33,955 bases of DNA from Devosiaceae bacterium MH13 (lineage in GTDB: Bacteria; Pseudomonadota; Alphaproteobacteria; Rhizobiales; MH13). The notes beneath the pieces were generated by a model. That model was not told the origin of the DNA. It saw nothing but the letters and a program-made list of their open reading frames with translations, and ran no database searches. A program made the position numbers and the translations under genes. Location: positions 1 to 33,955 of the forward strand of contig JAHCMG010000186.1 of NCBI GenBank assembly GCA_019192585.1. Reading direction: 5' to 3'. Shown one piece after another: positions 17,655 through 26,099 of this stretch (its first letter is position 1; every line of letters starts with the position of its first letter).

Positions 17655-18206
17655 ATGCGCCTGATTGTTTGCTCCCTTTCCGCCATTTCCGCCGTCGCTG
17701 AGGCAACAGGCGCCCGCCACATGCTCAGCGTGCTGTCCGCCGGTACACCGGTGGAGCGACCCGCGAGCATCCCAGCGGACAATCACCTGTTCTTAGAGTT
17801 CAACGACATCACCGCACCCGCCGATGGCCTCGTGCCGCCCGGTGCCGAGCATATCGAGCGCATCTTGGCGTTCGGCCGCGCTTGGGACCGCAAGGCGCCG
17901 CTGATCGTCCATTGTTGGGCGGGGGTGAGCCGCTCCACAGCGGCGGGCTACATCCTATCCCACACGCTGACCCAAGGCTCTGATCCGCACGCGCTGGCCC
18001 GCCTGCTGCGTGCCCGCGCCCCCTGGGCGACGCCCAACAGCCGCATGGTTGCCCTCGCAGACAATGTCCTGGGAGAGCGCGGCGCGATGCGCGATGCCAT
18101 CGCTGCTATTGGCCGGGGCGCGTCCGCCTATGAGGGCAACCCATTCGAACTGCCCGTTGATCCGCCAACCCAAACTGAAGCGGCCCCCGAAACGGGAGGG
18201 CGCTGA
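17655..18206 (+). CDS. Tyrosine-phosphatase-like protein (CX5R)
   Basis: From the ATG at 17655 the protein has 183 residues; a GTG at 17640 would add five. The phosphatase loop HCWAGVSRS (86-94) contains the C-x5-R motif with Cys87 and Arg93, the catalytic nucleophile and phosphate-binding Arg of the cysteine phosphatase superfamily. The N-terminus MRLIVCSLSAIS and the FNDI segment (about 49-52), which may supply the general acid, fit the small alphaproteobacterial PTP-like group. The substrate may be phosphotyrosine or another phosphoester. Its stop overlaps the nadQ ATG (TGATG), so the two are translationally coupled, and it probably belongs to an operon with the HD gene 24 bp upstream. Confidence 0.85.
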   Translation: MRLIVCSLSAISAVAEATGARHMLSVLSAGTPVERPASIPADNHLFLEFNDITAPADGLVPPGAEHIERILAFGRAWDRKAPLIVHCWAGVSRSTAAGYILSHTLTQGSDPHALARLLRARAPWATPNSRMVALADNVLGERGAMRDAIAAIGRGASAYEGNPFELPVDPPTQTEAAPETGGR

Positions 18207-19240
18207 TGTCGCGATCCGCCGATCAGGCGATCGGGCTCGATCTCACCGCCGCCGTTGTCGCACTGGTTGAAGGCCATCCGGCGATCCTGACGGTCGGCGG
18301 CGCCGAACCGCAGGCCGAGCCGGCCCTGCCATCGGGCCCGTTCGCCCCTTTGGAGCACCGGACGCTGGAGCTGGGCCTGCGCGGGTTTGTGGAAGCCCAA
18401 ACCGGCTTCCGGCTTGGCTACATCGAGCAGCTTTACACGTTTGGCGACCGGGGACGGCACGCAACGGGCCTGTCATCGGCGCCGCACGTTCTGTCGATCG
18501 GCTATGTGGGCCTCACACGCGCCGTTGAGGAGGGCGTGCCCGAACGCGACGCCGCGCCACGCACGGCCTGGTCTTGGCAGGGCTGGTACCGCTACTTCCC
18601 GTGGGAAGACTGGCGCAGCGGGCGGCCGCCTGTGTTGGATGAACGCTTGCTGCCTGGCCTGCAGGCCTGGCTCGCGCGGGACGCCCGCGACGAGCCGCCC
18701 GGCCGCGCTCTGTCGCGCCGCGAACGGGTGTCACTGGCCTTTGGCGCGTCGGCGATGGATGCCAGCCTCAATGGCGCCCAGCGCGATGACACGCCCTGGG
18801 ACGAGGAGCGCGTGCTTGAACGCTATGAGCTCCTGTATGAGGCTGGGCTGGTGGTGGAGGCCGTTCGCGACGGCCGCGACGCGGCCGCGACACCAGCCGA
18901 TGGGCTCGGCCGGCCGATGGCGCTCGATCATAGACGTATTCTGGCAACGGCCATCGCGCGGCTGCGCGGCAAGATGAAGTACCGGCCCGTGGTGTTCGAG
19001 GTGATGCCCGCCACCTTCACGCTGACCGATCTGCAATTGGCCGTGGAGGCGATTGCCGGGCGGCGGCTGCACAAGCAAAACTTTCGCCGCCTTGTCGATC
19101 GCGCGGGCCTTGTCGAGCAGACCGGCGCTACCACCCTCGCCACCGGGGGGAGGCCGGCTGCGCTGTACCGGTTCCGCCGTGATGTGGTGGCCGAGCGCCC
19201 CGCCGCCGGGCTGCGACTGGGCCAGCCCGTGGTGCGATAG
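18206..19240 (+). CDS. nadQ: NadQ-like NAD metabolism regulator (degenerate Nudix + winged helix)
   Basis: This 344-residue protein resembles NrtR/NadQ (COG4111-type) regulators. The N-terminal half has a Nudix fold with EQLYTFGDRGRH (74-85), as in NrtR. The Nudix box is broken: about 44-67 reads G-x5-E ... R-G-F-V-E-A-Q-T-G where active enzymes have R-E-x-x-E-E-x-x-G, so hydrolysis is unlikely and ligand sensing more likely. The C-terminal region after about residue 250 is a winged helix-turn-helix with PATFTLTDLQLAVEAIAGRR, HKQNFRRLVDRAGLVEQTG and GGRPAALYRF, the NrtR-family DNA-binding block. GGGAGGG precedes the ATG. NadQ was predicted to control nadABC in alphaproteobacteria, and nadABC lies 3.2 kb downstream. 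Confidence 0.8.
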   Translation: MSRSADQAIGLDLTAAVVALVEGHPAILTVGGAEPQAEPALPSGPFAPLEHRTLELGLRGFVEAQTGFRLGYIEQLYTFGDRGRHATGLSSAPHVLSIGYVGLTRAVEEGVPERDAAPRTAWSWQGWYRYFPWEDWRSGRPPVLDERLLPGLQAWLARDARDEPPGRALSRRERVSLAFGASAMDASLNGAQRDDTPWDEERVLERYELLYEAGLVVEAVRDGRDAAATPADGLGRPMALDHRRILATAIARLRGKMKYRPVVFEVMPATFTLTDLQLAVEAIAGRRLHKQNFRRLVDRAGLVEQTGATTLATGGRPAALYRFRRDVVAERPAAGLRLGQPVVR

Positions 19241-20754: not shown

Positions 20755-21999
20755 CTATTGAGCAGGGGTGGCAAGGGGCGCGTCGGCGCGGGCTTCGCGG
20801 ATCGGCCAGTGGATGATGGCCGCTGCGATACCAAGCGCGATGCTGATGTACCAGACCACATCGTACGAGCCGGTGGTGTCGTAGAGCCGCCCGCCAAGCC
20901 ACACGCCCAGGAACGCGCCGACCTGGTGGTTGAAGAACACGATGCCCATCAAGGTTGCCAGGTACTTGGGCCCAAACATAATGGCCACCAGCGACGAGGT
21001 GGGTGGCACCGTCGACAGCCATAACAGGCCGATGGTGGCTGAGAACACCAGCACCGACAGCGGCGAGATGGGCAGAAGGATGAACAGCCCGATCGCCACA
21101 GCGCGGGCGAGGTAGATCAGCGCCAGGAAGATCGGCTTGGAATATTTGCCCGAGATGACGCCTGCGGCGAGCGATCCGATGACGTTGAACAGCCCGATCA
21201 GCGCCAGCGACCAGGCACCCAATGCCGGATCGAGCCCGAGATCCTCGATATAGGCGGGCATGTGCGCGGCGATGAACTGCACGTGGAAGCCGCACACGAA
21301 GAAGCCCGCGACCAGGAGCACATAGGAGCGGTGGGCAAAGGCCTGCCGCACCGCCTGTGTCAGCGTCTGATCTTCGATGAACGCGGCCGCCGCGTTGCTG
21401 TCCGCCTTACCGCGCAGCGCATAGGCGAGGAGCGGCACCGCCAGCATCATCGCGCCGAGCATCACAAGCGCCTGTTCCCAGCCATAGTCCGCGATCAACG
21501 CCCGGCCCAAGGGCGCGAACAGGAACTGGCCCATGGAACTGGCGGCCGTGCCGATGCCAAACACGAGCGCCTGTTTGGTCGCCGGCACCGTGCGCCCGAA
21601 CGCGGCCAGCACGATCGAGAAGCCAGCCGATGCCGCGAGCCCGATCATGACGCCCGCCGACAGGTGGAGCCATAGCGGGCTCGGCGCCCAGGCCATGAGC
21701 ACCAGCCCGGCGGCGTACAAAAGCCCACCGCCGACGAACACGCGGGCGGTGCCGTATTTGTCGGCGATCGCGCCACAAATCGGCTGGCCGATGCCCCACA
21801 TGATGTTCTGAATGGCCAGCGAGAGCGCGAAGATCTCGCGGCTCCACTCGCGCGCTTCGGTGACCGGCACCAGAAACAGCCCCATCACAGAGCGGGGCCC
21901 GAACGATAGGAGCGCGATCAGGCAGCCAGCCACGATGACCACCCAAAGAGCGGTGCCTCCGGCGCCCGATCGGGCCGGTGTGTCTTGCGTCGACGCCAT
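20755..21999 (-). CDS. MFS transporter, oxalate/formate-antiporter-like
   Basis: This 414-residue protein has about twelve hydrophobic segments in two halves. The loop after TM2, GAIADKYGTARVFVGGGLL, fits the MFS motif A. The first-helix region SFGPRSVMGLFLVPVTEAREWSREIFALSLAIQN is typical of the OFA/monocarboxylate-type group, which moves oxalate, formate, lactate or similar acids. I chose the ATG at 21999 because GGGAGAAA precedes it and the 17 residues before it in the longer frame lack any membrane or family character. It is transcribed with acuI (12 bp), which suggests a C3 carboxylate substrate such as acrylate or 3-hydroxypropionate, as inference. Confidence 0.88.
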   Translation of the reverse strand: MASTQDTPARSGAGGTALWVVIVAGCLIALLSFGPRSVMGLFLVPVTEAREWSREIFALSLAIQNIMWGIGQPICGAIADKYGTARVFVGGGLLYAAGLVLMAWAPSPLWLHLSAGVMIGLAASAGFSIVLAAFGRTVPATKQALVFGIGTAASSMGQFLFAPLGRALIADYGWEQALVMLGAMMLAVPLLAYALRGKADSNAAAAFIEDQTLTQAVRQAFAHRSYVLLVAGFFVCGFHVQFIAAHMPAYIEDLGLDPALGAWSLALIGLFNVIGSLAAGVISGKYSKPIFLALIYLARAVAIGLFILLPISPLSVLVFSATIGLLWLSTVPPTSSLVAIMFGPKYLATLMGIVFFNHQVGAFLGVWLGGRLYDTTGSYDVVWYISIALGIAAAIIHWPIREARADAPLATPAQ

Positions 22000-22147
22000 G
22001 TGTTTTCTCCCGGTTGGCCAGACGCCGCCGAAGCGAAGCGCGGCCGACATTTACGAACCACCATTTGGCCGAAAACCGCCCCAGGTCCATCCTCAAGATG
22101 AGGGGTGGCAAAGCCTCATCGCGGGTCAAATTGCCGGCTCACAAGCC

Positions 22148-22183
22148 AAAAACGGCCAAAACCGGCGAAAAACCGCCAAATTT
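22148..22183. repeat. Four A-tracts phased at exactly 10 bp (probable bent DNA)
   Basis: A-tracts begin at 22148 (AAAAA), 22158 (AAAA), 22168 (AAAAA) and 22178 (AAATTT). Each sits in a roughly repeated decamer, GCCAAAAACG / GCCAAAACCG / GCGAAAAACC / GCCAAATTTA. A-tracts in phase with the helix add their bends, so this segment should be intrinsically curved. It lies about 110-150 bp upstream of the nadA operators and may also influence the divergent MFS gene or bind nucleoid proteins. Confidence 0.75.
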
Positions 22184-22291
22184 ATCCGACTAAAGTTGAA
22201 GATAGGCGCGCTGACCTAGGCCTTTTGAGGCATGCCAGCGCACTGTTTCGGCCGACACGCTTGCGAACTCCGGCCCGAACCCTTACCTATA

Positions 22292-22304
22292 GCTCACTTT
22301 GAGC
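22292..22304. promoter_or_regulatory. Candidate NadQ operator 1 (inverted repeat)
   Basis: GCTCA-CTT-TGAGC is a perfect 5-bp inverted repeat in an AT-rich setting (TATA before, AAAA after). A second, related repeat begins exactly 35 bp further on. It overlaps a possible -35 box of nadA. The assignment to NadQ is inference from the nadQ gene nearby and the nadABC target. Confidence 0.5.
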
Positions 22305-22327
22305 AAAACCGGCTCGCCGTACATATG
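22299..22327 (+). promoter_or_regulatory. Candidate nadA promoter
   Basis: TTGAGC (22299-22304) could be the -35 box and CATATG (22322-22327) or TATGCT (22324-22329) the -10 region, with spacers of 17 or 19 bp. The -35 lies in operator-like repeat 1 and the -10 touches repeat 2, an arrangement that suits repression by promoter occlusion. Confidence 0.4.
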
Positions 22328-22339
22328 CTCAATTGGAGT
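22327..22339. promoter_or_regulatory. Candidate NadQ operator 2 (imperfect inverted repeat)
   Basis: GCTCA-ATT-GGAGT matches repeat 1 (GCTCA-CTT-TGAGC) at 9 of 13 positions in the same register, with ATAT before and ATTA after. The match is to the GCTCA half and the GAG core of the right half. Confidence 0.45.
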
Positions 22340-22407
22340 ATTAGTCCGGAAACGAGCCTCAGGCAGCGCCGAATATGAACGCTGCCGCCCCAGGAGGAGG
22401 GGACCCT

Positions 22408-23577
22408 ATGCAGCTGCCCCAAACCGCGTCTCAGCACGCGTCTCAGAACCAGCCGGCCGCCGACATGAACGGACGCCAGTTCACGCTGGAAAGCCCGCGC
22501 AGCCTGGCCGCCGTTGCGGCGGAAGCTTGGCATAATGAGCCCGCACCCGCACCGAGCCGGACGTTCCAGCCGCTGCCCATGCCCGATTTGACCTACACCG
22601 ACGCTGTCGAGGCCGAGGTCGGCCATCTGTACGCGAACATGGCCCACGCCGTGCCGCGCATCGAGTGGCCGGTGCACGCGCCGTACATTGCCGCGATCAA
22701 CCGGCTCAAGAAGGAACGTGGCGCCGTCATCCTGGCGCACAATTACCAGACCCCGGAGATTTTCCACGGCGTTGCCGACATTGTCGGCGACAGTCTGCAG
22801 CTTGCCAAAGAGGCCACCAAGGTCACCGAGGATGTGATCATCCAGTGCGGCGTGCACTTCATGGCCGAGACCTCGAAGATGCTGAACCCGGAAAAAACGG
22901 TCCTCATCCCCGATATGAAGGCGGGCTGCTCACTGGCCTCCTCCATCACTGGCGCCGATGTGCGGGCGCTGAAGGCCGCCTATCCGGGCGTACCCGTGGT
23001 AGCCTATGTCAACACGTCCGCGGACGTGAAAGCGGAGGTCGATATCTGCTGCACCTCGTCCAACGCGGTGCAGGTTGTCGAAAGCCTCGGCGTGGAGAAG
23101 GTCATCTTCCTGCCGGATCAGTATCTCGCTCGCTGGGTCGCCTCGCAGACCGAGGTCGACATCATCGCCTGGAAGGGCGCGTGCGAAGTCCATGAGCGCT
23201 TCACCGGCGCGGAGCTGCGCGCCTACAAAGAGGCCGACCCGTCGATCAAAGTGATCGCGCACCCTGAGTGCCCGCCCGATGTGATCGCCGAGGCCGACTT
23301 TACCGGCTCGACGGCGCATATCATCGATTGGGTGGTCGAGCAGAAGAGCGGCAAGGTTCTCATGGTGACCGAGTGCTCCATGGCCGACAATGTGGCCGTG
23401 GCCGCGCCCGATGTGGAGTTCGTGCGCCCCTGTAACCTCTGCCCGCACATGAAGCGTATCACCTTGCCCAAAATTCTTGATACGCTGCTGACCATGCAAG
23501 GCGAGGTGCTCATCCCGCCGCAGATGGCGGAGCGCGCCCGCCGCTCGGTTGAAGCGATGGTCAATCTCAAGAACTGA
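22408..23577 (+). CDS. nadA: Quinolinate synthase A
   Basis: NadA condenses iminoaspartate with dihydroxyacetone phosphate to quinolinate using a 4Fe-4S cluster. From ATG 22408 the protein has 389 residues; AGGAGG at 22392-22397 and following G residues favour this start over ATG 22375. The first 80 or so residues are a variable extension. The core begins with [25 protein letters not shown]. Cluster cysteines are Cys174 (DMKAGCSLA), Cys288 (HPECPPDV) and Cys345 in [17 protein letters not shown] (Cys342 is two residues before it). [19 protein letters not shown] matches the substrate loop. nadB follows 10 bp later. Repression by NadQ when NAD is plentiful is likely, given the operator-like repeats upstream. 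Confidence 0.97.
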
Positions 23578-23587
23578 GGGCCCCAAC

Positions 23588-25174
23588 ATGGCTGAAGCGG
23601 GGAGCCACACCGTGGCCCAAACCGTGACGCATGTCGACGATGTGCTCATCGTCGGCGGCGGCCTGGCTGGCCTGTTTTGCGCGCTCAAAATGGCGCCGCG
23701 CCCCGTAACGGTCATCACCTCGGCGCCCTTGGGCGTCGGCGCTTCGTCGGCCTGGGCGCAGGGCGGCATCGCCGCGGCCATCGCCGAGGGCGACACGTGG
23801 CAGGCGCACCTGGCCGATACGATTGCAGCGGGCGCGGGCCTCGTCGATGAGGCCATGGCCGAGCTGCTCGTTCGCGAAGCCAATGCCCGCATCGAAGACC
23901 TGCTGCGCTATGGCGTGCCGTTCGACACCGATCTCGCGGGCCGCTTGACCTTTGGTCGCGAGGCGGCGCATTCGGCCGACCGGATCGTCCACGTTCAAGG
24001 CGATAGGGCCGGCAAGGCCATCATGGCGGCGCTGATCGATGCGGTGCGCAACACCCCGTCGATCCGGGTCATCGAGAACCATGTGGTTGAAATGCTGCTC
24101 AGCGAAGGCCGCCAGGTGGTGGGCTTGCAAGCGCGTGGCTATGCCGGCCAGGCAGAGGCGCTTACCAACTTCCACGCCCGCGCCGTGGTGCTGACCTCCG
24201 GCGGCGTTGGCGGCCTCTACGCGACAACAACCAACCCCGTTGAAGCCCGCGGGCAGGGCCTCGCCATGGCGGCCCGCGCCGGTGCCATCATCGCCGATGC
24301 GGAGTTTGTGCAGTTTCACCCCACGGCCTTGGCAGTGGGCAAAGACCCAGCGCCGCTTGCCACCGAAGCCCTTCGCGGAAAAGGCGCGACGCTGATCCAT
24401 GCCGACGGCAGCCGGCTGATGGAGGGCGTGCACCCCGACCTTGAGCTTGCGCCACGCGACATCGTTGCCCGCGCCATCCACCGGGCCGTCCAGTCCGGTA
24501 GGGGCGCGTTCCTTGATTGCCGTCAGGCCATCGGCACCGCGTTCCCCGAGGCCTTTCCGACTGTCTATGAAAGCGCAAAGGATGCCGGCCTCGACCCGGT
24601 CACCGAGCCTTTGCCGGTGGAGCCCGCCGCGCACTACCATATGGGCGGCATCCTGACCGACGCATTCGGCAGAACATCGCTCGATGGGCTGTGGGCGGCC
24701 GGCGAAGTGTCCTCCACCGGGGCGCATGGCGCCAACCGTTTGGCCTCGAACTCGCTGCTGGAGGCGGTCGTTTTCTCAGCCCGCATCGCCGAGGACATCG
24801 TCCGCTCGATGCCCGATCCCGAGCTGCGCCGCTGCGAGATCGACGCGCAGTCCGGCTCTGTGATGCAGACCCATGCCGAGGCCGAAGCCGCCCGCGCCAT
24901 CCGCATGGTCATGGCCAAACATGTCGGCGTGGAACGCAGCGGGCCCGGCCTTGAAGCGGCGCTCGAGACGCTCGGGCAGATCAAGGACAACGCGCTGAAC
25001 CTCTCGATCCGGAACATGGCGCTCGCCGCCTGGATCGTGACGGCCAGCGGCTTGGTGCGCACCGAAAGCCGCGGCGGCCACGCCCGGTCGGACTATCCTA
25101 AAACGGATCCAGGCCAGCAGCGCCGGTCCTTCTGGACCCTTGCGGACTTGCGCGCGGCGGTGCCGCAAACGTAG
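23588..25174 (+). CDS. nadB: L-aspartate oxidase
   Basis: NadB oxidises L-aspartate to iminoaspartate, which NadA uses. From the ATG at 23588 (GAGGG upstream) the protein has 528 residues; a longer frame into nadA from 23549 is unlikely. The FAD motif is [18 protein letters not shown] near residue 18, followed by [15 protein letters not shown]. The succinate-dehydrogenase-like active site has [12 protein letters not shown] and [20 protein letters not shown], and [28 protein letters not shown] closes the flavin domain. A C-terminal helical domain follows. The gene lies between nadA (10 bp) and nadC (55 bp), so the whole pathway branch is one operon. Confidence 0.97.
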
Positions 25175-25229: not shown

Positions 25230-26099
25230 ATGAGCCTTCCGCACCCCATAGTTGCCGACCTGGTTGGCGCCGCCTTGCGCGAGGATCTCGGCCGCGCTGG
25301 CGACATCACGAGCCAGGCCACCCTGCCAGCAGGCGCAACGGCCCGGGCGCACATCAATGCCCGCCAGGCCGGTGTGGTGGCCGGGTTGCCGCTCGCCGCG
25401 GAGGCGTTCCGGCAGATCGGTAGCGGCATCGCCTTTGTGGGCGATGTGGCCGATGGCGCCCGCGTCGATCCCGGCACGATGGTTGCGAGCATCGAGGGGC
25501 CTGCGCTTGAGCTTCTGTCCGCCGAGCGCGTGGCGCTCAACTTCCTGACCCATCTGTCAGGCATCGCCACGGCCACGCGGCGCTATGCGGATGCCATCGC
25601 GCACACCGATGCGCGGGTGACGTGCACCCGCAAAACCTTGCCAGGCCTGCGGGCCGTGCAGAAATATGCCGTGCGCGCCGGCGGCGGCTCCAACCATCGT
25701 TACGGCCTCGATGATGCGATCCTCATCAAGGATAACCATATCGCCGTGTGCGGCGGGGTGGTGGAAGCCATGGCCTCCGCCAAAGCGTTTGCCGGTCATC
25801 TGACGGCGATCGAGATCGAGGTCGACACGCTCGACCAGTTCGCCAGCCTTCTCGCCTTGCCAGACACCGCGCGGCCAGACGTGGTGATGCTCGACAATAT
25901 GAGCCCGCATGATCTGCGCCAGGGTGTCGAGATGAATGAAGCTGCCATCGGCCGCCCCGCGGTGCTTGAGGCCTCGGGTGGCATCACGCTTGAGACCATC
26001 GCGGCGGTTGCCGAAAGCGGGGTCGACTACATCTCGTCGGGCTGGCTGACCGCGTCCGCGCCCGCGCTCGATTTAGGCCTCGATATCGAGATCCTTTAG
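25230..26099 (+). CDS. nadC: Nicotinate-nucleotide pyrophosphorylase (carboxylating)
   Basis: NadC (quinolinate phosphoribosyltransferase) turns quinolinate and PRPP into nicotinate mononucleotide and CO2, ending the de novo branch. From the ATG at 25230 it has 289 residues. Conserved parts are ALREDLGRAGDITSQA (substrate-binding N-terminal domain), LNFLTHLSGIATATRRYADAI, TRKTLPGLRAVQKYAVRAGGGSNHRYGLDDAILIKDNHI, EIEVDTLDQ, VMLDNMSP and EASGGITLETI. A longer frame from 25140 overlaps nadB and is rejected. A short GC hairpin (CCCC-GAC-GGGG) lies in the nadB-nadC gap. The stop overlaps the stop of the convergent small membrane protein. Confidence 0.97.
   Translation: MSLPHPIVADLVGAALREDLGRAGDITSQATLPAGATARAHINARQAGVVAGLPLAAEAFRQIGSGIAFVGDVADGARVDPGTMVASIEGPALELLSAERVALNFLTHLSGIATATRRYADAIAHTDARVTCTRKTLPGLRAVQKYAVRAGGGSNHRYGLDDAILIKDNHIAVCGGVVEAMASAKAFAGHLTAIEIEVDTLDQFASLLALPDTARPDVVMLDNMSPHDLRQGVEMNEAAIGRPAVLEASGGITLETIAAVAESGVDYISSGWLTASAPALDLGLDIEIL

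Follow-up and report, generated by a model that had tools for sequence, protein, structure and literature searches.

Two palindromic sequences that lie directly upstream of nadABC, the genes of de novo NAD synthesis, in Devosiaceae bacterium MH13 are almost certainly binding sites, as predicted from sequence, of the regulator NadQ. These two boxes, here called O1 (distal) and O2 (proximal), very probably form an operator pair through which NadQ would repress the operon, with O1 blocking initiation, O2 blocking promoter escape or elongation and a ligand relieving the repression. The stretch analyzed (hereafter the window) is 33,955 nucleotides long, and what the initial annotation had put forward as an open guess is thereby settled: the repeats are predicted NadQ operators, and the gene for the regulator lies in the same window. 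The operator pair itself is ordinary regulation by a known repressor. The new part, and the more interesting lead, is a hairpin–operator element in the nadA leaders of relatives, described further below.

The initial annotation had reported two related inverted repeats before nadA, and both are there: GCTCACTTTGAGC at 22292-22304 and GCTCAATTGGAGT at 22327-22339, 35 bp apart from start to start. The former is a perfect 5-3-5 palindrome, and the latter, imperfect in this 13-bp frame (three of five arm pairs), shows good symmetry in the wider frame ATGCTC-AATTG-GAGTAT (22325-22341; five of six pairs). Perfect 5-3-5 palindromes are not rare in the 408-bp intergenic region, which holds two against 0.49 expected from 20,000 dinucleotide shuffles, and the evidence is therefore the match to a motif and not the symmetry. 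The available text of the published regulon account gives the NadQ box consensus as ttATRCTCannntGAGYATaa (PMC5343134), and the comparison with this motif that had been proposed as a check comes out in favor of both boxes. O2 (ATATGCTCAATTGGAGTATTA, 22323-22343) matches 13 of the 14 core letters. O1 (TATAGCTCACTTTGAGCAAAA, 22288-22308) reaches 11 of 14: its inner core is perfect, its left outer arm is degenerate and all its mismatches are confined to the outer arms. Neither box is assigned a strand, and their centers are 35 bp apart. A site of the grade of O2 (at least 13/14) arose in none of the 20,000 shuffles of the intergenic region, and one of the grade of O1 (at least 11/14) in 1.4% of them.

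The boxes also stand out when scored with a matrix built from 44 proximal boxes in families of the order other than the window's own; the relatives' boxes were chosen via the published consensus, and the matrix thus depends on that consensus, though not on the window. Over all positions of the window, O2 ranks first (31.6 bits) and O1 second (15.9 bits), and the next best position reaches 2.1 bits. In the genome as a whole, among the matches listed, O2 is the only one with at most one mismatch to the 21-letter pattern, and every other match has at least three. Consensus and matrix scans of the window found no box before nadQ, and hence no sign of autoregulation. With no other near-matching site listed and none before nadQ, the NadQ regulon of this genome appears, as judged from its sequence, to be nadABC alone. 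The MFS transporter gene that diverges from the far side of the intergenic region (20755-21999, minus strand) lies about 290 bp from O1, and there is no reason to place it under NadQ.

The cognate regulator is encoded about 3 kb from the operators, at 18206-19240 on the plus strand. Its product has a Nudix-like N-terminal part and a C-terminal winged helix of the NrtR type (PF21906 NrtR_WHD, E 1.7e-20, 73.4 bits against a cut-off of 27), and it is homologous over its full length to PDB 7q91 (‘NADQ transcription factor’, entries 7q91-7q94; E 7e-76, residues 12-338). NrtR, the Nudix-related NAD regulator, acts in the same pathway and has the same type of winged-helix domain at its C terminus, but the protein here matches NadQ over its full length; identity as NrtR was rejected at 70.9 bits against the NCBI equivalog cut-off of 400. 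The operon, likewise on the plus strand, consists of nadA (quinolinate synthase, 22408-23577; NF006878 and TIGR00550 over cut-off), nadB (L-aspartate oxidase, 23588-25174; NF005701 over cut-off) and nadC (nicotinate-nucleotide diphosphorylase, 25230-26099; TIGR00078 over cut-off). A Shine-Dalgarno sequence, AGGAGGAGG, directly precedes the nadA start, and an alternative in-frame ATG lies at 22375. As far as the available text describes it, the NadQ (COG4111) regulon of Alpha- and Betaproteobacteria has the same motif, the same target operon and nadQ near nadABC (PMC5343134). The window differs in its paired boxes, one of them weak, and in having no box before nadQ; neither paired boxes nor a leader hairpin is discussed in that text.

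Across the order, the box follows the regulator. We searched 81 genomes, found nadA in 56 of them and scanned the stretch before each nadA for boxes with at least 12 of 14 core letters. Such a box precedes nadA in 48 of the 49 genomes with NadQ and is absent from six of the seven genomes that lack NadQ (Fisher p 1.5e-6). The exception with NadQ (G017) has a degenerate site only (11/14), and the exception with boxes and no NadQ (G018) is a fragmented assembly of 430 contigs with a congener that has nadQ. The published motif, the presence of nadQ in the window and the paired presence and absence of regulator and box together bear out the assignment of the repeats to NadQ. They also speak to whether the repeats could instead act as RNA hairpins of the nadA leader, an attenuator or a riboswitch, and not as DNA operators. 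A 6-bp stem is predicted to be possible in the transcript of O2, but no Rfam family matches within the window, the presence of the box follows that of a DNA-binding protein and the conserved letters are those of that protein's published motif, all of which makes an RNA role highly improbable. The NAD+-I riboswitch (nadA motif) precedes nadA in other bacteria, as the boxes do here, and Rfam searches of the window and of 12 related loci gave no match to it.

Alignment of nadA upstream regions from related genomes, the other check that had been proposed, shows both boxes kept in three congeners and in one further genus of the family. The tandem arrangement noted at the outset is thus conserved in the genus and the family, and roughly half of the boxed leaders in the order hold two boxes. 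In the alignment of the five family members, the conserved letters fall in the left half of O2 and in the right half of O1, whose sequence TGAGCAAAA is invariant. Searching the order for pairs of perfect boxes at a short distance gave 0 of 297, with a pattern so strict that the window itself fails it. It is conceivable, if rather doubtful, that O2 is the sole working operator, with O1 an accessory half-site, or one in decay, located at the promoter by chance: the score of O1 is half that of O2, its left arm is degenerate and roughly half of the order's leaders that have a box do with a single one. Against this, O1 is present in five of five family members, with TGAGCAAAA invariant and at the promoter there, and leaders with two boxes are common across families. 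In the nearest other genus, nadA reads as two pieces (G004:C88:4492-5513), possibly through a frameshift or a sequencing error, and in another genome (G043:C1:1067704-1068675) nadQ carries one in-frame TGA and the nadA box is perfect.

The place of the boxes relative to the promoter is best seen in the relatives, where CTTGC(G/C) or CTTGAC is followed after 17 bp by TATACT, TATGTA or TATCTG abutting O1. The window keeps the -35-like element (CTTGCGA, 22260-22266, plus strand, conserved in the family alignment; CTTGCG from 22260), but its -10 is degenerate (TACCTA/CTATAG) and the start site uncertain; a scan for consensus sigma-70 promoters found none and likewise missed the -35-like element. 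Given the position of the -35 and -10 elements in the relatives, the likeliest placement puts O1 over the -10/start region and O2 over the early leader. The suggestion that the two repeats together overlap the best promoter candidate is thus upheld for O1, which is probably at the -10/start, and not for O2, which by the family alignment probably lies beyond the start and within the leader. This placement suggests promoter occlusion combined with an elongation block. A different two-box arrangement is seen in three genomes (L081, L082 and L083), where O1 is placed between a TTGACA -35 element and the -10 and is followed 28-34 bp later by O2.

What the analysis shows is the motif match, the linked nadQ, the co-occurrence of box and regulator and the conservation within the family; NadQ binding, repression, the position of the promoter, the way in which O1 and O2 share the task and the direction of the response to ATP are inferred. 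NadQ would occupy both boxes as dimers and thereby repress nadABC: on O1, in the -10/start region, NadQ would block initiation, and on O2, about 35 bp further in the transcribed leader, it would interfere with escape or elongation. Repression would be relieved by a ligand bound to the Nudix-like domain; NadQ is said to be ATP-responsive in the title of the 2022 structure paper by Minazzato and colleagues, as cited in PMC12421817.

The initial annotation had also pointed to a spacing of exactly 35 bp and to the cooperative repression that tandem sites could allow. As a constraint, neither is supported. Spacings within the genus are 35 (the window), 36, 36 and 42 bp; the next genus has 48 bp and most other two-box leaders of the order have 28-99 bp, with a few second candidates further off; the spacings of family and order leaders have no 10.5-bp helical periodicity (R 0.20, p 0.36). 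This variable spacing and lack of helical phasing leave fixed-face cooperative repression unsupported. Selection of the 35-bp spacing, whether for looping or to let two dimers bind cooperatively on one face, would accord with the closeness of the boxes within the family (35-48 bp) and with the better conservation of the halves of O1 and O2 that face each other, but it is unlikely in view of the spread of distances in family and order, the missing periodicity and the fact that 35 bp amounts to 3.33 turns.

The nadA leaders of most other families contain, between the promoter and O2, an RNA hairpin, typically CCGGC-loop-GCCGG, and after it a T-rich stretch. The base of the hairpin lies 18-20 nt before the NadQ box; the window and its own family lack the element. 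The loci include those of Rhizobium, Bradyrhizobium, Afipia, Ancylobacter and Hyphomicrobium, among others (L037, L038, L040, L042, L044, L047-L054, L056, L065, L067, L069, L070, L074, L075 and others; L131-L210 adjoining nadA). Of 49 leaders, 32 have a hairpin with a T-run in this position; the number expected from shuffles is 3.6. In the MAFFT alignment (A1), which has no gaps, the stems of some rows are displaced, and pairing was instead assessed by swapping arms between sequences: 17 full 6-bp stems form with the leaders' own arms, against 7.9 with swapped arms, and none of 5000 swaps reaches 17. Both arms are replaced in L039 and L056. A pattern scan of public genomes, which required CCGG arms and gauges spacing and not frequency, gave for hairpins directly before nadA, among the matches listed, hairpin–box spacings of 18 (at least 30 cases), 19 (at least 9) and 20 nt (at least 2), with none of 17 or 21, whereas the listed matches that are not before nadA spread over 17-21. 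The hairpin was also considered as the terminator of the upstream gene and rejected in that role, the upstream gene being divergent in many loci. Rfam gave no family for it in 12 related loci (an M23 hit below threshold, on the opposite strand of L040, was disregarded), and a literature search for a leader hairpin before nadA in rhizobia returned nothing relevant.

The distance from the active site of RNA polymerase to its front edge is about 18-20 nt. The similar spacing between hairpin and box suggests a NadQ roadblock that would hold the polymerase at the hairpin. We tentatively propose, as a possibility that falls short of our favored expectation, that NadQ bound at O2 stops the polymerase on the hairpin and T-tract, causing pausing or termination, and that the window's family is derived, having lost the hairpin and using two close operators instead. 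By a simple count, the stalled polymerase would sit slightly short of the classical release point. The hairpin–operator element would open the control of transcript elongation by NadQ to direct tests in standard laboratory rhizobia.

Several further features lie near the boxes in the window. In the nadA leader, a strong 7-bp RNA stem, GGCAGCG/CGCTGCC, is predicted at 22362-22386, and beside it a weaker predicted fold takes in part of the Shine-Dalgarno sequence. The other perfect 5-3-5 palindrome of the intergenic region, CCTCAAGATGAGG at 22091-22103, does not fit the NadQ motif. Also between the MFS gene and nadA, positions 22145-22180 hold three head-to-tail 10-bp units, GCCAAAAACG, GCCAAAACCG and GCGAAAAACC.
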